DNA of 45,301 nucleotides from Candidatus Auribacterota bacterium. Its GTDB lineage: Bacteria > Auribacterota > Tritonobacteria > UBA1439. Both the position numbers and the translations under genes were made by a program. Shown here piece by piece: positions 4,633 to 13,281 of the stretch. The number at the start of each line of letters is the position of its first letter. The stretch's first letter is position 1. Below the pieces are notes generated by a model. It saw only the letters and a program-made list of their open reading frames with translations, made no database searches and was not told the origin of the DNA. The DNA lies in assembly GCA_026392035.1 (NCBI GenBank), contig JAPLCX010000030.1, forward strand, positions 1-45,301, written 5' to 3'.

Positions 4633-4662
4633 TTGACTGACTCGTACCCCTGGGCGTATCAT
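4633..4662 (+). promoter_or_regulatory. sigma-70-type promoter upstream of the riboswitch
   Basis: TTGACT at 4633-4638 and TATCAT at 4657-4662 are separated by 18 bp. Transcription would start near 4669-4670, about 20 nt before the conserved riboswitch core, which is the expected geometry. Confidence 0.55.
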
Positions 4663-4689
4663 GTGTGCATTCTTTCATAATCGCTCTTT

Positions 4690-4836
4690 TGAGAGGGAAG
4701 GCGGTGAAAAGCCGCCGCTGCCCCCGCAACTGTAAGTGGCATAGCGCGCTGTCCACCGGCCACTGGATCAGTGAATCGTCCAGGTCGCTGTTCTGGGAAG
4801 GCCGATGGCGTAAAAGGGCCACGAGCCAGGAAACCT
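4690..4836 (+). promoter_or_regulatory. cobalamin (B12) riboswitch
   Basis: The + strand shows the conserved segments in order: GGGAAGGCGGTGAAAAGCC near 4695-4713, GCTGCCCCCGCAACTGTAAG (B12-box-like core, about 4717-4736), CCACTGGATCAGTG (about 4759), CTGGGAAGGCCGATGGC (about 4794-4810) and the 3' B12 box ACGAGCCAGGAAACCT (about 4821-4836). These are hallmark sequences of the AdoCbl-type cobalamin riboswitch. Short frames across this region are not genes. The RNA sits between a promoter and an intrinsic terminator, so ligand binding would be expected to stop transcription before the 828-residue surface protein gene. Confidence 0.95.
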
Positions 4837-4885
4837 CACGTCAATTTTTCTCCGGGGTGGGAGAAGCGGATACCGTAATGGCTAA

Positions 4886-4913
4886 GCCCTTCGCTCCGGC
4901 GGAGGGCTTTTTT
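4886..4913 (+). terminator. intrinsic terminator of the cobalamin riboswitch
   Basis: GCCCTTCGC-TCCG-GCGGAGGGC (4886-4907) forms a 9-bp stem with one T.G pair and a 4-nt loop, followed directly by six T (4908-4913). It lies 50 nt after the riboswitch core and before the first gene, as expected for a transcriptional OFF switch. Confidence 0.88.
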
Positions 4914-4925
4914 ATTGTGCACGGG

Positions 4926-5130
4926 GGATATAACCACTGAGGGCACTCGAACCACCAATGACAAAATTCAAATGACAAAACGTGATATTTGTCATTTGTG
5001 ATTTGGTATTTGCCATTTCTGCAACATTTCAGTGTCCCTGCCCGCCGGCAGGCAGGTTCAGTGGTTCAAATGCAAAGTGTGAGGAGTATAATCAGCGGTT
5101 AATAATCTATTGCGTTATCGAGTATTGGTA
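4926..5130. repeat. interspersed repeats in the leader between terminator and first B12 gene
   Basis: This stretch holds a CCACTGAGGGCACTCGAACCACC unit, an inverted pair of the AAATGACAAAA / TTTGTCATTTG type (about 4958-5000) and a CAGTG..TTCAGTGG unit interrupted by a 20-bp palindrome. No coding potential is credible here. Confidence 0.6.
5037..5056. repeat. 20-bp palindrome (variant copy 2)
   Basis: CCTGCCCGCCGGCAGGCAGG, identical to the copy at 1707. It lies between TTTCAGTGTC and TTCAGTGGTT, that is, inside a CAGTG-type repeat. Confidence 0.85.
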
Positions 5131-5178
5131 TCATGCCAATCTTGAGTTGATGAGTAGACCACGCGAGGCTGCATAGTT

Positions 5179-7665
5179 ATGAAACTTTGGAAAATTGCGC
5201 CACTGTGTCTTGCCCTTGCGCTCCTGTGGATCGCCCTAGCATATTTTCATCAGCCGGTTCAGAAGGCCCCTCAACGCCCGCTTCGCATCGAGCGCCGCAG
5301 AGAGGCCAATTCCTATCGCACGGATCGAACAAAAAACAGATCACGTAACCTCACGCCTATTCATGCCGATGCCCTGCTCGCATCTGTTTTTCATGAGGAT
5401 CGCACCACGGGTAACGCCGCCATTCCTCCGCCACAGAAGACCGAAGTCCCCCACTCTGCTCCCACGGCTGAGCGCGCGAAAGAGCCCACTCCGGGAAATC
5501 CCATTGAGCCTCGCGCGGCAGATGAAGCTGCCAGCCGCGATCATGCTGATCCTACCCCCCCGCCCTTTGTTATCGTAACCACCAAGCTCCCGACCGCTTT
5601 TGTGGGAGCGAGCTACTCTGCTTCGCTCGTCGCAGAGGGAGGCACATCCCCCTATATCTGGAGTCTTCCCGAGGGGGCTCTCCCGAAGGGGCTCTCGCTC
5701 GATGGGAGCAAGGGGATAGTGTCAGGCACTCCCCAGTCGCCCGGCACTGCGCAGCTCTCGCTCAAGGTGATCGATGCAGCCCGGCGCAGCGCCTCGGCCT
5801 CGTGTGCGCTTGAGGTTAGAGAACAGGGAGGCATACTCGTGCCGATGGTTGCCGGCCTCCACTCGCAACCCCTCTATCTCATCACCGGCACGCTCCCCCA
5901 GGCGAAGGTGGGCGAAGCGTACCGTTCTCAATTCGCGGCGACAGGCGGCACCCCTCCCTATCTCTGGTCAATCCACACCGGCAGCCTGCCTGAGGGAATC
6001 ACGCTCGAGCGCCTGACCGGCTCGCTCACGGGAACCCCTTCCACACCCCAGCTCGCCGTGTTTCAGGTAAAGGTAGTCGACAGCGAAGCGCACGCTGACA
6101 TCGCTGAAAACCGGATCGTGGTGGTGGGCCCTGAGCTGGTGATCGCCACCATTTCGATCGAAACTGGAACGGTGGGTTCTCCTTACGAGCAAAAGCTCGA
6201 GGCAACAGGAGGCGCGCCACCCTACAGTTGGAACATCTCATCGGGAACGCTCCCGGGCGGCCTTTCACTCGATGCGGGCAGCGGGCTGATCAGCGGCACG
6301 CCCACGGAGCACTGCGACACCCTCCTCGCGGTCCAGGTCTCTGACAGCCAGGGGGCGATGGCCTCGGAGGAATTGGAGCTCCTGGTAGCTTCGTCCTCCC
6401 TCGCTGTCGTCACGGAGAGCCTTCCCCAGGGTGAGCTCAACAAGGCATACGCGGCCACGCTCGCGGCGGGCGGCGGCGTGACCCCGTACAAATGGTCACT
6501 GACAGTCGGTCAGCTCCCGCCCGGTCTCACGCTGAATCAGGCGACGGGCATTATCGGCGGGACTCCTTCAGGGGGAACCGGGGATTACGGGCTCACGTTC
6601 AGCGTGACCGACCAGGAGGGAACGCAGGCCAGCCGGGCGCTCACGCTCTCAATCGTCGTATCGTCAACACTCATGGTGACCGATCTGAACGCGGTTCCCA
6701 GCGACCAGAAGGTAGGCCTCACCTGGAGCAACCCCGCCGCGAAAGACTACTCGCGCACCGTCGTCCTCAGGAGCTCCTCGTACTATCCGTCGGGCGCAGG
6801 AGATGGGACGGTGATCTACAGCGGCAGCGGCGACAGCTATCTCGACACCGGGCTTCAAAACGGCGCCTCCGTCTACTATGCCGCAATTGCCTACGCGACC
6901 TCCGGTGCGCCGGGCGTTATTGCCGAGAGCTCCAAAACCTGCGCCATGCCGCAGGCGGTCACCCTCTCAGGCGCCGCAGATCCGTTCGCCGACGCCGTGG
7001 CGTCCTTCCAGCCCCTCTCGCCCGGCGGCTTCGGGTCGGGCAACCTCTCCTGCGTCCTCGGCCCCCCGTTCGGCGGTGGAGTCATGCGCGGCTCAACACA
7101 CGTGGTATCCCTCCACGCGCGCGCCAACGAAGACGGCGGCGCCTCGGCCCCGTACGGCGGGAGCATCACGCTCCAGTTCACCAATAATATTGTGGTGAAT
7201 GGGCCGGGCCCTGATTTTATTATTTTTGAAAACGTCTTTTACGCGGGCGGGGATCCGCAGCAGCGGTGGATGGAGCCGGCGATTGTCGCCGTCAGCCGTG
7301 ACGGCTCCCGCTACTACACGTTCCCCTACGATTTCGTTCCGCACTACACCGCGAGCGGCGAGATCAACTGCTATAACCCATACTGCTACAGCAAGGGGTT
7401 CGCGGGCGTCAATCCCGTCTTCAGCAATGGCGGCTCGCCTGACCCGCGCGCTCCATCCGCGGCAGGGGGTGACGCGTTTGACCTCAGCAAGATCACCCAG
7501 GTCAGCCTCGACTGGATCCGCTACGTGCGGATCACCGCCACGGGCGACAACTGGCTCACGGACATGAATGGGGACCGGGTGCGCCATGTGAGGGACACTG
7601 GAGCGTGCAGCGGGGGCGGCTCCTCAGGTTTCGATCTGGACGCGATATGCGCGATTAACTACTAG
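5179..7665 (+). CDS. large secreted/surface protein with four putative-Ig domains, under the cobalamin riboswitch
   Basis: The 828-residue protein starts with a single hydrophobic segment (LCLALALLWIALAYF, about residues 9-23), then a basic, Pro/Ala-rich linker to about 128. Four putative-Ig (He_PIG-like) domains follow at about 130-212, 232-316, 318-403 and 405-493, each with the pattern 'G..Y...L.A.GG..PY.W....G.LP.GL.L....G...GTP'. A fibronectin-III-like module covers about 498-592. The C-terminal domain (about 598-828) has GPGPDFIIFENVF, VSRDGSRYYTFP, AGGDAFDLS and a final GFDLDAICAIN. I know this C-terminal pattern from 'cell surface protein' annotations, but no function is established. 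Because it is the first gene after the riboswitch, I infer a role in capturing cobalamin outside the cell; no cobalamin-binding residue can be pointed to. The weak GAGG 10 nt before the ATG is the only ribosome site. Confidence 0.85.
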   Translation: MKLWKIAPLCLALALLWIALAYFHQPVQKAPQRPLRIERRREANSYRTDRTKNRSRNLTPIHADALLASVFHEDRTTGNAAIPPPQKTEVPHSAPTAERAKEPTPGNPIEPRAADEAASRDHADPTPPPFVIVTTKLPTAFVGASYSASLVAEGGTSPYIWSLPEGALPKGLSLDGSKGIVSGTPQSPGTAQLSLKVIDAARRSASASCALEVREQGGILVPMVAGLHSQPLYLITGTLPQAKVGEAYRSQFAATGGTPPYLWSIHTGSLPEGITLERLTGSLTGTPSTPQLAVFQVKVVDSEAHADIAENRIVVVGPELVIATISIETGTVGSPYEQKLEATGGAPPYSWNISSGTLPGGLSLDAGSGLISGTPTEHCDTLLAVQVSDSQGAMASEELELLVASSSLAVVTESLPQGELNKAYAATLAAGGGVTPYKWSLTVGQLPPGLTLNQATGIIGGTPSGGTGDYGLTFSVTDQEGTQASRALTLSIVVSSTLMVTDLNAVPSDQKVGLTWSNPAAKDYSRTVVLRSSSYYPSGAGDGTVIYSGSGDSYLDTGLQNGASVYYAAIAYATSGAPGVIAESSKTCAMPQAVTLSGAADPFADAVASFQPLSPGGFGSGNLSCVLGPPFGGGVMRGSTHVVSLHARANEDGGASAPYGGSITLQFTNNIVVNGPGPDFIIFENVFYAGGDPQQRWMEPAIVAVSRDGSRYYTFPYDFVPHYTASGEINCYNPYCYSKGFAGVNPVFSNGGSPDPRAPSAAGGDAFDLSKITQVSLDWIRYVRITATGDNWLTDMNGDRVRHVRDTGACSGGGSSGFDLDAICAINY

Positions 7666-8081
7666 CCCATGGTCCACAGTCGATGGTCCATGGCATGGAG
7701 GAAGAAAATGCGAACCGAGAAGATAACGGGGCGCTTCAAAGTACTCACCCTGCTCATATAGTGCAAACCACAGATGAACACAGATAAAATATGATATGAA
7801 ACAGGATGCACGCAGATGAACGCAGATGAACAGTTATTTCTCCCTCACCCCCACCTAACCTCCCCCCTCGGAGGGGGAGGAATCTTTAATATGTATTCCC
7901 ACAAAATGGAAGACACCCATTTTTATCAGGTGTATCTGCGTACATCTTGTTCCCTCAAAAATAATCCGCGTAATCAGTATAAATCCGCAGCTTTAAATGT
8001 AATATCTGTGTGTATCTGCGTGCATCCTGTTTCAAAATACGTAGTGGTTATATGTTAATTCCCTTATTTGGTTCAAAATAG
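7666..8081. repeat. 416-bp repeat-filled gap
   Basis: It contains a CCATGGTCCACAGTCGATGGTCCATGG duplication just after the stop codon of the upstream gene (about 7667-7693). An ACCACAGATGAACACAGATA unit starts at about 7768 and has partly inverted counterparts (TGTATCTGCGTGCATCCTGTTTC near 8008-8033 and GTGGTT near 8043). A C-rich CCTCCCCCCTCGGAGGGGGAGG hairpin lies near 7859-7880. No promoter or gene stands out. Confidence 0.6.
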
Positions 8082-9005
8082 ATGAAGAAAATGCTGATCT
8101 GGACAACTATTCTCCTGGGCATCGCCACACAGGGCGTCTATGCCGCGGGTGAAGGCTATGTGACGCTCCGCGTGGGCCGCGATTTCCGCAACCCTCCCCT
8201 CCTCGAAAAAAGGGTGAGTTTCTCGGGCCAGTCCGTCATGAAGCTTTTACAGTGTTGTGCGACCGTTGAGACCGCTTTCGGGGGCGCGTTCGTGCAATCC
8301 ATCAATGGGTTGCGCGCCGGGAAAAACAGGGGGGCGGGCCGCTCCTGGTTCTACTATGTCAATGGCCTGATTGCCGGCGTGGGCGCCGCGCAGTACGTTC
8401 CCGAAAATGGCGATTGTGTATCGTGGGACCTGCACGCGTATGAAGGGGTGGGCGCCATCCCCGCCCTGATCGGCTGTTTTCCCCACCCATTCCTCAGCCC
8501 CCAGAGATCGCGCGCCGCGTTTCCGCTCATCCTCCACGACAGCGCCTCGCGCGAGAAGGCGTGCGCCCTCGCGCGTGTGCTGGAGCGGCAGGGGGTCAAG
8601 GGAATCCGCGTGCAGATGATTTCAGACGGCCCCATCCCGGACAATACCCCCTCAATAATCATCGGGAGATGGGACGAAATATCCCGCAGCAGCACGGTGA
8701 AGCGCGTCTACGAACACAGAGATGCATGTGGCGTTTTTGTTGAATTCAATAGCGAGGGGCTGCGCATCCTGGCCCTGGATCGCACGCCGCGCACATGCCT
8801 CCCCCGGGCAGGGGCTATCCTCGCCGCGAGGGGAGGCCGCGCGACAGCGGTTCCGATCTGGCTCATCACGGGGACCGACCATGCGCGAACCTCGGAGGCA
8901 GCGGATATTCTCATACATGAACCGGGGAGGATAAAGGGCATGGTCTCTGCCGCTATTTCGGGAGGGAGGCTCTATCCGGTTCCGATAATAGATATGACCG
9001 AATAG
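8082..9005 (+). CDS. secreted DUF4430 (transcobalamin-C-like) protein
   Basis: The 307-residue product begins with a classical signal peptide (MKKMLIWTTILLGIATQGVYAAG). Residues about 25-125 match the DUF4430 pattern: VTLRVGRDF, SVMKLLQCCATVET, FVQSINGLRAG, SWFYYVNGLIAGVGAAQYV, GDCVSWDLHAY. This domain is related to the C-terminal domain of animal transcobalamin/intrinsic factor, which touches cobalamin. The remaining about 180 residues (from HPFLSPQRSR) form a second domain, perhaps alpha/beta, that I do not recognise. Its place between a B12-riboswitch gene and an ECF transporter with a CbrT-like S component suggests a periplasmic or surface cobalamin binder. ECF systems normally lack a separate binding protein, so its exact partner is open. 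No cysteine lipobox is seen. Confidence 0.82.
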   Translation: MKKMLIWTTILLGIATQGVYAAGEGYVTLRVGRDFRNPPLLEKRVSFSGQSVMKLLQCCATVETAFGGAFVQSINGLRAGKNRGAGRSWFYYVNGLIAGVGAAQYVPENGDCVSWDLHAYEGVGAIPALIGCFPHPFLSPQRSRAAFPLILHDSASREKACALARVLERQGVKGIRVQMISDGPIPDNTPSIIIGRWDEISRSSTVKRVYEHRDACGVFVEFNSEGLRILALDRTPRTCLPRAGAILAARGGRATAVPIWLITGTDHARTSEAADILIHEPGRIKGMVSAAISGGRLYPVPIIDMTE

Positions 9006-9455
9006 TACAGCTACCATAATAACCACAGATAAACACAGCGCGGCCGTTGGCCGCAACCAATTTTTACCACTGAAGACACTGAATTCACTGAACACAACAT
9101 TCTACGGTAAAGAAAGTTACGAATACCAAGCGAAAAACTTTCTCAAATTAAAAAGTTTTGCACACTTGTAGTACAGATGAACGCCGATACAAATTGCGAA
9201 ACTGGATTCACGCAGATAGGACTACAGTTACTAATGGGAGCACATTATTCTTTGCGCTTTATGATATTGTCATTGCGAGCGAAGCGAAGCAATCTCCTGC
9301 TGCGCATAGAGTTGAGATTGCTTTGTCGCTGCGCTCCTCGCAATGACATGTCAAGTATTTTATGCTCCCCTTAATAAAAGCGCAAAGTTGAAGGTGTCCA
9401 GGGAAATAATATCTTCGAACGGTGGGCGTTACACATTTGGCCGTAGTATTCATCT
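9006..9455. repeat. 450-bp repeat-filled gap
   Basis: It holds, in order: an ACCACAGATAAACACAG unit (9022), a CACTGAAGACACTGAATTCACTG unit, an ACAGATGAACGCCGATAC-type unit, a large inverted repeat (9271-9345, listed separately) and CATCTGTGGTTTACC just before ecfT. No gene or clear promoter is seen. Confidence 0.6.
9271..9345. repeat. inverted repeat CATTGCGAGCGAAGCGAAGC...TCGCAATG
   Basis: The left arm 9271-9296 (CATTGCGAGCGAAGCGAAGC and following AATCTC) and right arm 9314-9345 (GAGATTGCTTTGTCGCTGCG and following) fold into a long hairpin with a short loop. Very similar hairpins are widespread as intergenic repeats in uncultivated bacteria; this is from memory. Confidence 0.75.
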
Positions 9456-10379
9456 GTGGTTTACCATATGTCAATATTCACTATTGTTGATAATCTGATG
9501 AATGAACGAACAGTGAGCCGCCATTTTCACCCCATCGCCGCCTTGTGCTACGCCGGGGCGCTCTTCGTCCTCGCGATGTCCTGGTCGAATCCGCTGTGGC
9601 TCATCCTCCTGCTCACGTTCACCGCGACATGCCTCCTCGTCATTTCCGACTGGCGCGCATGGAGGAATGCTCTCGTGCTCTCCCTCTCCATGGCGCTCGT
9701 CGTCTGCCTGGTGAATGCGTTTTTCGCTCCTGCGGGCGCAGCAACCGTCGTCAGGGGACCGGTAATGCTCCTCCTCGGGCGGTTTCGCCTCTGCCCCGGG
9801 GCGCTCCTGTTCGGCCTCGCCGCGGGACTCAAGATCCCTCTCGCCGTCAGCATATTTGTTCTCTGCGGGGAACTCATGGACCAGGATGAGGTGCTTTCCT
9901 TCCTCTCGCGTTTCGCTCCAAAATCCTCCCTCGTGGCGACACTTGCGACACTGATGATCCCGAGACTGAGGCGCGAGCTCGAGAGGATCCGCACGGTGAT
10001 GAGCATGCGCGGCGCGAGTCTCGATGACCGCCGGCTGATCGCCCGCATCAAGGCATCGCGTCCGCTCCTCCACGTGCTCCTGCTCTCGTCCCTCGACGGC
10101 GCGTGGGATACCGCAGCTTCTCTCAGTTGCCGGGGGTTCGGCTCGGGGAAACGGAGCTCGTACGGGAAGCGGCCGTGGTTGGCGCGTGACTGTTTCCTCC
10201 TCGCCGGAGCGCTGCTCGCGCTTATCCCCTTCGCGATCGGGCTCGCCGCGGGCAAGGGCTGCTATCATTTCTATCCCCGGCTCGATCCGGTGGTGAATAT
10301 GTCGGACATCCCATCCCTTATCCTGATTCTCTCCCTCCTGTCCCTGACCTTCTCTCTCGCATGGAGATCGACGCGATGA
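9456..10379 (+). CDS. ecfT: ECF transporter transmembrane (T) component
   Basis: A 307-residue inner-membrane protein with about five to six hydrophobic helices (such as LWLILLLTFTATCLLVI and LVLSLSMALVVCLVNAFF). The cytoplasmic coupling region carries the two Arg-Gly motifs of EcfT, MSMRGASLD (about 183-191) and SCRGFGSG (about 224-231), which contact the ATPases. It joins the ATPase subunits to the substrate-specific S component. The ATPase gene starts within its stop codon (ATGA overlap at 10376-10379), so the two are translationally coupled. Several starts are possible (GTG/ATG codons at 9456, 9468, 9501); none has a strong ribosome site, and the DNA just upstream is an interspersed repeat. 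Confidence 0.9.
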   Translation: MVYHMSIFTIVDNLMNERTVSRHFHPIAALCYAGALFVLAMSWSNPLWLILLLTFTATCLLVISDWRAWRNALVLSLSMALVVCLVNAFFAPAGAATVVRGPVMLLLGRFRLCPGALLFGLAAGLKIPLAVSIFVLCGELMDQDEVLSFLSRFAPKSSLVATLATLMIPRLRRELERIRTVMSMRGASLDDRRLIARIKASRPLLHVLLLSSLDGAWDTAASLSCRGFGSGKRSSYGKRPWLARDCFLLAGALLALIPFAIGLAAGKGCYHFYPRLDPVVNMSDIPSLILILSLLSLTFSLAWRSTR

Positions 10380-12007
10380 GCCTTTATGAGATCGAGCAAT
10401 TGACATACTATTACCCGGAGACGGCCCGGCCGGCGCTCGACCACGTCAACCTTCTCCTCGACGAGGGAGAGCTCGTGCTCATCACCGGGCCCTCCGGCGG
10501 CGGGAAAACGACGCTCGCGAGGGCGCTCTCGGGCCTCGTGCCGCATTTCTTCGGCGGCAAGATCGGCGGCCGCGTGAGTTACCGCGGGAATCCCCTGGAC
10601 AGCCTTGACCGCCGCGCGCTCAACGCCGAGATCGGCGTGGTGACGCAGGATCCCGAGAAGCAGATCCTCATGAGGGGCGTTGAGCGAGAGCTCTGCTTCG
10701 GGCCTGAGAACCTCGGCCTCCCCCCCGAGCAGATTGCGCGCCGTGTCATGGATATGGCGGGCCTCCTCGGGCTCTCGGGGCTCCTCCGCCGCCGCACCGA
10801 TGAGCTGTCGGGGGGCATGAAGCAGCGGACCGTCCTGGGCGCCGTCATGGCCATGGGCGCGCGCGTCATGATTCTCGACGAGCCGACATCACAGCTCGAT
10901 CCCGCGGCCGCTGACGATCTGCGGGGATTTCTCTCCCGCGCGCGGGATGAGCTCGGCTACACCATACTGCTCATCGAACAGAGACTCGAGCACTGCCTCC
11001 CTATGGCCGACCGCGTGCTCTTCATCGATCGCGGCCGCCTGAATTTTGACGGCACGCCGCGCGACTTCCGCCGCTGGGCAGCGACGCAGGCGCCCTATGT
11101 CCTGCCGCGCGGGCCAGGTATCTCTTTCGTCGGCAGCCCTGACGATGCGACGCCCAGCGCGAGCGGCGAGCTCTGCCCCCCGCCCGCTCCCGGATCCCAC
11201 GCGCCCCCCCCGCGCGCTGAGCCCCTCGCCGAGCTCAACAATGTCTCATTTACCTACGGGAGCGACGGCCCGGCGCTCAGGGAGGTCACACTCGCTGTCG
11301 GGCAGGGTGAAGTCATCTCGATCCTGGGGCCGAACGGCTCGGGCAAGAGCACGCTCCTGAAAATCATCTGCGGCCTCCTCCCCCCCTCACGGGGGACGGT
11401 CACTGTCGCGGGCAAGAAACCATCCCAGCGCCCAAACCGCGAGAAGGCTTCTCTCTGCGGCTACCTCTCGCAGAATCCCGATGATTTCCTCTTTCACGAA
11501 ACTGTCTTTGACGAGGTCGGCTACACCCTCCGCAATCTCGGCCGATATGACGAGGACAGCGTGCGTGCGGCCCTCGCGCGGTGGGGGATTGCGCATCTGG
11601 CCGACAGGAACCCGAGGGAATTGAGCGCCGGGGAACGCCAGTGCGTCGCCCTCGCCGCAGCCACGATCGCATCGCCGCCGCTCCTGCTGCTCGACGAACC
11701 GACGCGGGGGCAGGATGGCCGGCTCAATGAGCAGACGGGCAGGCAGTTCGCCGCCTTCGCGCGCGAGCGCAATGCCGCGGTGATCGTGGTCACCCAGGAC
11801 GTCGAATTTGCGGCATCGTGGTCTCATCGCATCGTCCTGCTCTTGAACGGCACGATCATCGCCGACAGGCCGAACCGGTCAACCCCCGCCGGCGCGCCGT
11901 TCGACCCCTCTCAGATGAGCAGTCTATTTCGCGGCGTGTGGATATCGGGGGGGCATGAGGAGTGCAGCATGCCTCGCGGCGCTGAGCCTGATCGAGAGCG
12001 CTCATGA
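10376..12007 (+). CDS. ecfA: ECF transporter fused double ATPase (EcfA-EcfA')
   Basis: A 543-residue protein with two complete ABC ATPase domains in one chain; most ECF systems encode them as two genes. Domain 1 has Walker A GPSGGGKT (38-45), signature LSGGMKQR (144-151) and Walker B VMILDEP (164-170). A Pro-rich linker lies near 255-283. Domain 2 has Walker A GPNGSGKST (318-326), signature LSAGERQ (416-422) and Walker B LLLLDEP (436-442). Together they power uptake through EcfT. I start it at the ATG at 10376, overlapping the ecfT stop by ATGA; an in-frame ATG at 10361 would add five residues. The next gene again overlaps by ATGA (12004-12007), so T, A and S form one tightly coupled unit. 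Confidence 0.93.
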   Translation: MSLYEIEQLTYYYPETARPALDHVNLLLDEGELVLITGPSGGGKTTLARALSGLVPHFFGGKIGGRVSYRGNPLDSLDRRALNAEIGVVTQDPEKQILMRGVERELCFGPENLGLPPEQIARRVMDMAGLLGLSGLLRRRTDELSGGMKQRTVLGAVMAMGARVMILDEPTSQLDPAAADDLRGFLSRARDELGYTILLIEQRLEHCLPMADRVLFIDRGRLNFDGTPRDFRRWAATQAPYVLPRGPGISFVGSPDDATPSASGELCPPPAPGSHAPPPRAEPLAELNNVSFTYGSDGPALREVTLAVGQGEVISILGPNGSGKSTLLKIICGLLPPSRGTVTVAGKKPSQRPNREKASLCGYLSQNPDDFLFHETVFDEVGYTLRNLGRYDEDSVRAALARWGIAHLADRNPRELSAGERQCVALAAATIASPPLLLLDEPTRGQDGRLNEQTGRQFAAFARERNAAVIVVTQDVEFAASWSHRIVLLLNGTIIADRPNRSTPAGAPFDPSQMSSLFRGVWISGGHEECSMPRGAEPDRERS

Positions 12008-12618
12008 TGAATAAGGGATTGTTGAGCCTCGCTGCGGCGATGGCCGTTGTGTGTTATGCGTTCTATCGTTTTGAAAAGGGTAGGTTCTCGTCAAAGGAAA
12101 TATCGCTCATCGCCGTCCTCGCCGCGATCGCGGCGGTCGGCCGGATCCCGTTCGCCGCGCTCCCGAACGTTCAGCCAACTACATTCTTCGTCATGATTTC
12201 CGGTTTTGTCTTCGGCCCGGCGGCGGGCTTCCTCGTCGGCGCCGTGGCGGCATTCAGCTCCAATCTCTTTCTCGGGCACGGCCCCTGGACAATCTGGCAA
12301 ATGCTCGCATGGGGGGCGTGCGGCGCCTCTTCCGGCGTCCTGGGGCTCCTCATGCCCCGGGCGGGCAGGATGACGCTCGCCGTGTTTTCGGTGCTCTGGG
12401 GCTACCTGTTCGGCTGGGTGATGAATTTCTGGTACTGGTACTCTTTTGTCTATCCCCTGACCATATCGTCATGGGTCGCGGTCAATGCCGCCTCGTTTTA
12501 TTTCGACACACTCCACGCCGCCGGGAATGCCGCCTTCTTTCTCTTCCTGGGCAATGGGTGCATCAGCGCGATGCGCTATTTCAAGAAACGGCTTGAATTG
12601 TCGTACATTACAGGTTAA
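12004..12618 (+). CDS. ECF transporter S component, CbrT-like (cobalamin)
   Basis: A 204-residue membrane protein with about six hydrophobic helices. The segment AAVGRIPFAALPNVQPTTFF, followed by GFVFGPAAGFLVGAVAAFSSNLFLGHGPWTIWQMLAWG, reads like the CbrT-type S components that bind cobalamin for ECF transporters (family recalled, not searched). The substrate call is supported by the neighbouring riboswitch and DUF4430 protein. The start ATG at 12004 overlaps the ATPase stop (ATGA); a second ATG follows directly at 12007. Alternatives would be an S component for another vitamin, but the local context argues for B12. Confidence 0.85.
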   Translation: MMNKGLLSLAAAMAVVCYAFYRFEKGRFSSKEISLIAVLAAIAAVGRIPFAALPNVQPTTFFVMISGFVFGPAAGFLVGAVAAFSSNLFLGHGPWTIWQMLAWGACGASSGVLGLLMPRAGRMTLAVFSVLWGYLFGWVMNFWYWYSFVYPLTISSWVAVNAASFYFDTLHAAGNAAFFLFLGNGCISAMRYFKKRLELSYITG

Positions 12619-12669
12619 ACTATTTCCAGCGGCCGTCTCTTGGCCAACCTGGCGCAGCGTGGTAACACA

Positions 12670-13281
12670 ATGAAAACAATACTCGCCGTCACCATCTCTG
12701 CTGTTCTTTCGCACGTCTGTGTTTCACTCACCGCCGGAGCGGAAGGCACGGAACTCAATAAGGGGGGGTATGAGATCAGCTGCGACGGAGGGAAGGTAAC
12801 CGTTCTCGCAAATGATGCGAATGTGGTGCAGCTCCTCAAGGAGTTTTCCCAGAAGAGCGGCATCACCTTCAATAAGTACATTGGCAAGACACAAACGGTC
12901 ACGCTCGATCTCAGCGGCGTCACGGTCGAGGAGTTCCTCGATCGGCTCCTCGGGAGCTACGTGGCGACGTCAAAGAAGAAGAACGGCACCACGCGCATCA
13001 GCTCGGTCACCATTATGGACGAGGGGGGCGAGAAACCTCAGGCTCCGCATGAACCGCCGCCGCCACGCGAGCCGGAGGATCCCAACGCGGGGCGGGGAAT
13101 GATGCCTCACGGCCCCGGGCAAGAGGGACGGGAGTCCCCGTGGCGAAAAGATCGCTCGTCAAAGTCACCCCGCAGGCGGATACCCCATGACTCACGGCCG
13201 CCTGATTCGCCTCCTCAACCGGCCGAAGAATCAGGGCTGGTGCCTCCGCCGCCAGACCCAGCGCAGCAGCCGGAACCATGA
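12670..13281 (+). CDS. secreted protein with secretin/TonB short N-terminal (STN)-like domain and proline-rich tail
   Basis: A 203-residue protein with a signal peptide (MKTILAVTISAVLSHVCVSLTAGA). Residues about 30-105 fit an STN/secretin_N-like fold: YEISCDGGKVTVLANDANVV, LLKEFSQKSGITF, VTLDLSGVTVEEFLDRLLG. The last 90 residues are rich in Pro, Glu and Arg (PPPPREPEDP and similar) and look disordered. The STN domain elsewhere contacts secretins or TonB systems; here its role is unknown. It begins only 51 bp after the S-component gene and may be in the same transcript. I start it at the ATG at 12670 rather than 12640, since the signal peptide begins there. It ends the + strand block. Confidence 0.7.
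   Translation: MKTILAVTISAVLSHVCVSLTAGAEGTELNKGGYEISCDGGKVTVLANDANVVQLLKEFSQKSGITFNKYIGKTQTVTLDLSGVTVEEFLDRLLGSYVATSKKKNGTTRISSVTIMDEGGEKPQAPHEPPPPREPEDPNAGRGMMPHGPGQEGRESPWRKDRSSKSPRRRIPHDSRPPDSPPQPAEESGLVPPPPDPAQQPEP

Follow-up and report, generated by a model that had tools for sequence, protein, structure and literature searches.

A probable cobalamin-acquisition operon that joins BtuH-type and DUF4430 proteins to an ECF-CbrT importer in a Candidatus Auribacterota bacterium

The window analyzed here is the whole of contig JAPLCX010000030.1 (45,301 bases; C30) from a Candidatus Auribacterota bacterium, whose 2.8-Mb assembly (G000) is 96% complete and consists of 122 contigs. Downstream of a cobalamin riboswitch it carries genes for an exported immunoglobulin (Ig)-repeat protein, a secreted DUF4430 protein and an energy-coupling factor (ECF) transporter of the CbrT type. 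With a probability of about 0.82, we read these genes as the cobalamin/cobamide acquisition operon of a corrin auxotroph, in which BtuH-type and DUF4430 capture proteins would feed ECF-CbrT. A preliminary description made from the sequence alone had proposed a vitamin B12 acquisition locus, and this is borne out by the riboswitch, by the match of the S component to the solved transporter 6FNP, and by the riboswitch linkage of both the C-terminal domain of the Ig protein and DUF4430 in a sample of 384 genomes (coded by G-numbers).

The C-terminal domain of the Ig protein, which had been listed as a domain of unknown function, is on profile and model evidence distantly related to the B12-binding domain found in BtuGH and BtuH2, a family whose Bacteroides members bind B12. 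A Pfam scan of all 31 aligned C-terminal domains returned chance matches and no family, and phmmer of the single domain against the PDB gave no match; only many-member profiles reached BtuGH. The domain profile found one meaningful PDB chain, 8BLW_B (BtuG1, i.e. BtuGH, of Bacteroides thetaiotaomicron), at residues 391–498 (E=0.0012), a segment whose homologue in BtuH2 is the C-terminal domain (7BIZ; E=3e-17). HHalign of the two profiles, the domain versus BtuGH/BtuH2, gave E=8e-7 and a probability of 92% over 94 columns. In a Foldseek search of the PDB with the AlphaFold2 model of the domain (pLDDT 86, pTM 0.84), 8BLW_B ranked first (E=2.9e-6). With a TM-score of only 0.44 when normalised by query length, and a target made up of two domains, the fold match supports the assignment and does not prove it.

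In BtuH2 the B12-binding domain is C-terminal and comes after three PKD (Ig-like) domains (PMC8941943); BtuGH binds cobalamin with both of its halves (PMC12751083). The window protein thus shows a BtuH architecture, with an end domain that is remotely homologous, and it would be predicted to bind B12. Like BtuH and BtuGH of B. thetaiotaomicron (BT1956, BT1488, BT1490; 7BIZ, 8BLW), it is exported, with Ig-like domains where these have N-terminal PKD domains or a propeller ahead of the C-terminal domain, and it belongs to a riboswitch-controlled B12 locus. In contrast to the Bacteroides proteins, which are lipoproteins working with BtuB and BtuCDF, the window protein has no lipobox, no BtuB in its operon, and an ECF system and DUF4430 instead. 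At the N-terminus it has a hydrophobic stretch that lacks a lipobox cysteine, as judged by eye and hydropathy only, and an inner-membrane anchor facing the periplasm and a place on the outer surface appear equally possible.

At the sequence level the domain has strongly diverged from Bacteroides BtuH and groups with LIC_13355-like proteins. Each of the 31 aligned members matches NCBIfam NF033170, the LIC_13355 lipoprotein family of Leptospira, although the window domain scores 49 bits against a cut-off of 120. LIC_13355, studied in Leptospira as an adhesin, is thus distantly the same domain as the cobalamin-riboswitch family; it was reported to bind laminin and plasminogen in a study in which a B12 role was not considered (PMC11891782). 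BtuJ (DUF4465) proteins, riboswitch-linked exported B12-binding beta-sandwich proteins of several phyla (PMC13398666), are alike in kind, whereas the window domain has no Pfam match to DUF4465 and constitutes a separate sequence family.

Conservation analysis with a profile built from four copies of the domain (A1) recovered 39 copies in 38 of the 384 genomes, representing 27 families. Of these copies, 33 have a cobalamin riboswitch on their own strand no more than 7 kb upstream, compared to 0.07 expected from riboswitch number and genome size; as the copies are related, the associated tail probability is nominal. The riboswitch scan covered the domain-bearing genomes and two relatives, and one of the 33 riboswitches, that of G033 (L040), falls under the RF00174 cut-off and over that of the adenosylcobalamin (AdoCbl) family. 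Among the six exceptions, two copies are at contig ends (G004 and G006) and one locus is split across contigs (G028), its other half bearing an AdoCbl riboswitch and a TonB receptor. In G013 there is no cobalamin riboswitch nearby, and in G239 and G370 the scan gave no cobalamin riboswitch match genome-wide. That the Ig protein might not travel with B12 genes, raised beforehand as a way in which the proposal could fail, is contradicted by these 33 copies. A separate scan of collection contigs for the domain with strict patterns matched five close relatives; close relatives in this collection include the metagenome assemblies Candidatus Auribacterota JAPLCY010000235 and Candidatus Tritonobacter lacicola JAVCDC010000142.

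A TonB receptor shares the domain locus in at least 11 genomes and a BtuG-like propeller in about ten, and in three genomes (G088, G101, G233) propeller and domain are fused in one protein, which is the layout of BtuGH. In one Thermodesulfobacteriota genome the domain directly follows the riboswitch. Orthologs of the Ig protein in sister families of the same phylum (G033, G028) follow a riboswitch and a TonB receptor. This pairing suggests that, in the class of the window, an ECF importer was added to the same capture module, or that the receptor moved elsewhere.

The importer itself comprises a CbrT-homologous S component, EcfT and two ATPases, as does ECF-CbrT of Lactobacillus delbrueckii (6FNP). 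This is by far the closest solved relative of the S component (Table 1), with the next PDB match at E=0.04, and the protein also matches the riboflavin S-component Pfam model. The CbrT-type S component and the fused ATPases named in the preliminary description were confirmed. The 6FNP transporter imports cobalamin and cobinamide (PMC5997447), and homology together with riboswitch control argues that the system of the window would transport cobalamin. In L. delbrueckii one ECF module serves several S components, whereas the window encodes a dedicated fused module in one operon with exported capture proteins.

Our genome-wide searches indicate that the bacterium is very likely a cobamide scavenger which cannot make the corrin ring, since FecCD (the BtuC family) has no match in G000 (control positive in 13 of 14 genomes), only one TP-methylase is present, and 30 B12-binding-domain matches were found. 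The TP-methylase is of the uroporphyrinogen-III methyltransferase/synthase (CobA-HemD, siroheme) type; de novo corrin synthesis requires several such enzymes. G000 also encodes a MetH-like protein without reactivation domain and a methylmalonyl-CoA mutase with MeaB. ECF-CbrT appears to be the only importer candidate among the genes that we found. The earlier remark that neither BtuB nor BtuCDF is visible holds for the locus and, as regards FecCD, for the genome, but one TonB-dependent receptor (the single Plug-domain protein of G000) is encoded on another contig, C90. BtuB models are its best NCBIfam matches (E=1e-36), but it scores 126 bits against a cut-off of 836, and its locus (L035 4468–17306) combines it with TonB, ExbB-like, CbiM-CbiQ-CbiO and XdhC-like genes and has no riboswitch. 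The same locus also holds a second ECF system with a 192-aa membrane protein.

The DUF4430 protein scores 51.9 bits with PF14478 (cut-off 23.8), in agreement with the secreted DUF4430 protein proposed beforehand. PF14478 is found in 11 of the 384 genomes and lies inside this same operon in four. In G052 and G200, DUF4430 follows a riboswitch, a TonB receptor and a BtuG-like propeller. The DUF4430 proteins of G095 and G238, which also have SLH and prenyltransferase-like toroid domains, are encoded next to EcfT-EcfAA'-CbrT and near cobalamin riboswitches. Downstream of DUF4430 in G149 come genes for a membrane protein weakly similar to CbrT and, judged by eye, for what looks like a cobalamin adenosyltransferase, and in G076 and G339 there is no riboswitch near DUF4430. 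With B12 loci in most DUF4430 genomes, the concern that this protein, too, might not travel with B12 genes found no support.

Transcobalamins carry DUF4430 at their C-terminus (PMC4350170), and the window protein shares with the small domain of transcobalamin and intrinsic factor the DUF4430 assignment. Unlike transcobalamin, it has no alpha/alpha-toroid match in Pfam and carries a C-terminal alpha/beta domain instead; phmmer of the protein against the PDB gave no match. This C-terminal half (window 8490–9005) was modelled confidently and resembles part of BcsB, a cellulose-synthase subunit (Foldseek E=1e-5). Large proteins with SLH, toroid-like and DUF4430 domains near ECF-CbrT and riboswitches (L018 8501–17843 in G095; L126 and L135 in G238) are bacterial cases in which both kinds of transcobalamin domain occur together. 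Beside or near DUF4430 we also observed genes for a DUF6580 membrane protein (L019 8427–8954 in G052; L137 3799–4320 in G076); the one in G052 is situated inside the riboswitch-BtuB-BtuG-like locus and is a candidate for an unrecognised B12 membrane component.

The order Ig protein, DUF4430, EcfT, EcfAA', CbrT recurs in G003, in G004, where a contig end cuts it, and in G006, which belongs to another family of the class, so that the cluster order spans two families; G002 has all cluster genes except DUF4430. A riboswitch precedes the cluster in G002 and G003, and the G004 and G006 loci run into contig ends. In these latter two genomes the cluster genes are within 70 bp of each other or overlap. 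The window has a gap of about 415 bp between the Ig and DUF4430 genes and one of about 450 bp between the DUF4430 and EcfT genes, which hold inverted repeats and a REP-like element. Close packing in G004 and G006, together with a gene order kept in five genomes, gives these gaps the look of sequence that arrived later, and we read them as insertions into an ancestral operon. The first gap (7666–8081) contains inverted-repeat arms at 7797–7827 and 8004–8034 that are 90% complementary; the second (9006–9455) contains a REP-like TCATTGCGAGCGAAGCGAAGCAATC element at 9270, and the relatives are without these intergenic gaps. The Ig protein of G006 (L016 129–2867) has a zinc-ribbon-like insertion (UPF0547) inside its BtuH-like domain.

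In the mechanism that we propose, low intracellular cobalamin would cause the riboswitch to let transcription through. The BtuH-type protein would be exported, with its four Ig domains as a stalk bearing the B12-binding C-terminal domain, and the DUF4430 protein, a possible relative of transcobalamin's small domain, would be exported as a second capture or handover factor. ECF-CbrT would then carry the cobamide across the inner membrane, replacing BtuCDF, and the outer membrane would be crossed perhaps via the single TonB receptor on C90. The genes, the riboswitch, their conservation, the lack of BtuC-family proteins and of further TP-methylases in the assembly and the remote homology to BtuGH/BtuH2 are observations, whereas B12 binding by both exported proteins, their place in the envelope, handover to CbrT and the outer-membrane route are predictions. 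That both sit inside the envelope and hand cobamide directly to the ECF S component, as a binding-protein-dependent ECF importer with transcobalamin-type handover, strikes us as unlikely; we know of no characterised ECF system that works in this way. A better case, which we would put a little below even odds, can be made for an Ig/BtuH-like protein at the outer surface that serves the C90 receptor, with ECF-CbrT only replacing BtuCDF and no direct handover. BtuG and BtuH serve BtuB likewise in Bacteroides, the sister-family Ig orthologs follow a riboswitch and a TonB receptor, and the C90 receptor itself has BtuB models as its best matches and an adjoining TonB gene. On the other hand, the Ig protein is without a lipobox, and the low score of this receptor, the lack of a riboswitch and the company of CbiMQO, a second ECF system and XdhC-like genes suggest another substrate.

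Our reading as a cobamide acquisition operon has several points against it. The repeat-bearing gaps make co-transcription in this genome uncertain, no BtuB is encoded in the operon, and the statements on absence in G000 come from a few family searches in a fragmented assembly of the completeness given above. For the DUF4430 protein, the profile (A7) matches the transcobalamin-2 beta domain best among PDB entries, along its entire length but at a non-significant E=0.33, and the AlphaFold2 model, calculated with four sequences, has low confidence in the DUF4430 half (pLDDT about 35). The same gaps, together with the terminator-like hairpin at the riboswitch, would also fit control of the Ig gene alone, with DUF4430 and the ECF genes as a separate constitutive unit that is adjacent by chance; the tight packing in G004 and G006 and the gene order conserved in five genomes make this quite improbable. 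We consider it slightly less probable still that the exported proteins bind a ligand other than B12 (for instance cobalt, a glycan or some partner at the surface) and share only their regulation with B12 uptake. The predicted fold of the C-terminal domain does resemble F5/8 type C and CBM32 carbohydrate-binding domains as well, BtuL of B. thetaiotaomicron, encoded in such an operon, bound no cobalamin (PMC12751083), and LIC_13355 has the reported host ligands mentioned above, but the best match in both fold and sequence is the BtuGH/BtuH domain, a cobalamin binder. Import of cobalt or another vitamin by the ECF system, finally, is very improbable: EcfT belongs to the CbiQ family and the S component matches the riboflavin model, but the distance between 6FNP and the next solved S component, the riboswitch control and the presence of CbiMQO elsewhere in the genome all speak against it, and the cobalt-transport and riboflavin S-component assignments were rejected on the 6FNP match.

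The preliminary description knew of no account of this combination of genes, while allowing that one might exist; the combination is not without precedent. BtuH-type capture and ECF-CbrT are both known, and a BtuH homologue near an ECF-like cobamide transporter gene has been mentioned for Eubacterium siraeum (PMC8941943), in a single sentence of a paper on gut species in which DUF4430, a diderm context and conservation are not described; DUF4430 also adjoins ECF-CbrT in the unrelated G095 and G238. Our literature search, for which most subscription papers were outside reach, including Rodionov 2009 on ECF families, found no account of the DUF4430-ECF pairing, of the LIC_13355-like riboswitch-linked family or of the operon. 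The results point to a likely function for an exported domain that is missing from Pfam and present in roughly one in ten genomes of a diverse sample and in 27 families, and they would extend BtuH-like B12 capture past the gut Bacteroidetes, its main described setting. They also tie bacterial DUF4430, a domain that human transcobalamin and intrinsic factor share, to B12 import, so that it becomes directly testable whether the animal B12 carriers have a bacterial origin or a bacterial parallel. The operon may be how this little-studied bacterium of lakes and sediments, probably a B12 auxotroph that lacks BtuCDF, scavenges cobamides.

Table 1. Features of the probable cobalamin-acquisition locus in the window.
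Feature	Position	Strand	Evidence
Sigma-70-like promoter (TTGACT-18-TATCAT)	4633..4662	+	pattern scan, 10/12 matches; consensus match only
Cobalamin riboswitch aptamer	4694..4836	+	Rfam RF00174, 85.7 bits, E=7e-20
Intrinsic-terminator-like hairpin	4884..4909	+	11-pair stem, then TTTTATT / T-rich DNA
Exported Ig-repeat protein, 828 aa: hydrophobic N-terminus, four He_PIG domains, C-terminal BtuH-like domain	5179..7665	+	Pfam (He_PIG E=2e-45), hydropathy; also the first gene behind the riboswitch in G002 and G003
C-terminal BtuH-like domain, residues about 589–828	6943..7662	+	riboswitch-linked in 27 families
Secreted DUF4430 protein, 307 aa, C-terminal alpha/beta domain	8082..9005	+	Pfam PF14478 E=1e-13; cleavable-looking signal peptide; Foldseek
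EcfT (CbiQ family) transmembrane coupling subunit	9456..10379	+	PF02361 E=3e-8; orthologues at this position in G002, G003, G004, G006
Fused EcfA-EcfA' ATPases, 548 aa	10361..12007	+	two ABC_tran domains, ECF ATPase models
CbrT-type ECF S component	12004..12618	+	PF12822 E=3e-11; phmmer to 6FNP E=2e-16, 172 residues
Small exported protein, weak STN (secretin/TonB short N-terminal) match	12640..13281	+	PF07660 E=0.049, sub-threshold

The riboswitch, promoter and terminator of the preliminary description, as well as its 828-residue first gene with four Ig domains, were all recovered (Table 1). The hairpin is likely the expression platform of the riboswitch; promoter and terminator patterns as classes barely exceed the shuffle expectation and serve as supporting context only. 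The end coordinate of the span given for the locus (4633–13281) takes in a sixth gene, with the weak STN match. This gene is kept after CbrT in G002 and G003, with 48–50% identity to the copy of the window.

A second cobalamin riboswitch of G000 is found on contig C92 (L021 11329–13821), where it precedes two genes, one for an exported protein of 443–478 aa and one of PF01902 (Diphthami_syn_2). In G002, G003 and G005 the exported protein likewise lies behind a cobalamin riboswitch. A search of it against the PDB gave no BtuG match; weak NHL-type matches give it the look of a beta-propeller, which it probably is, and it may be a BtuG-like partner. Upstream of this riboswitch (L021 9336–10134) are apparent broken CbiQ and CbiO frames, possibly a decayed cobalt ECF system.

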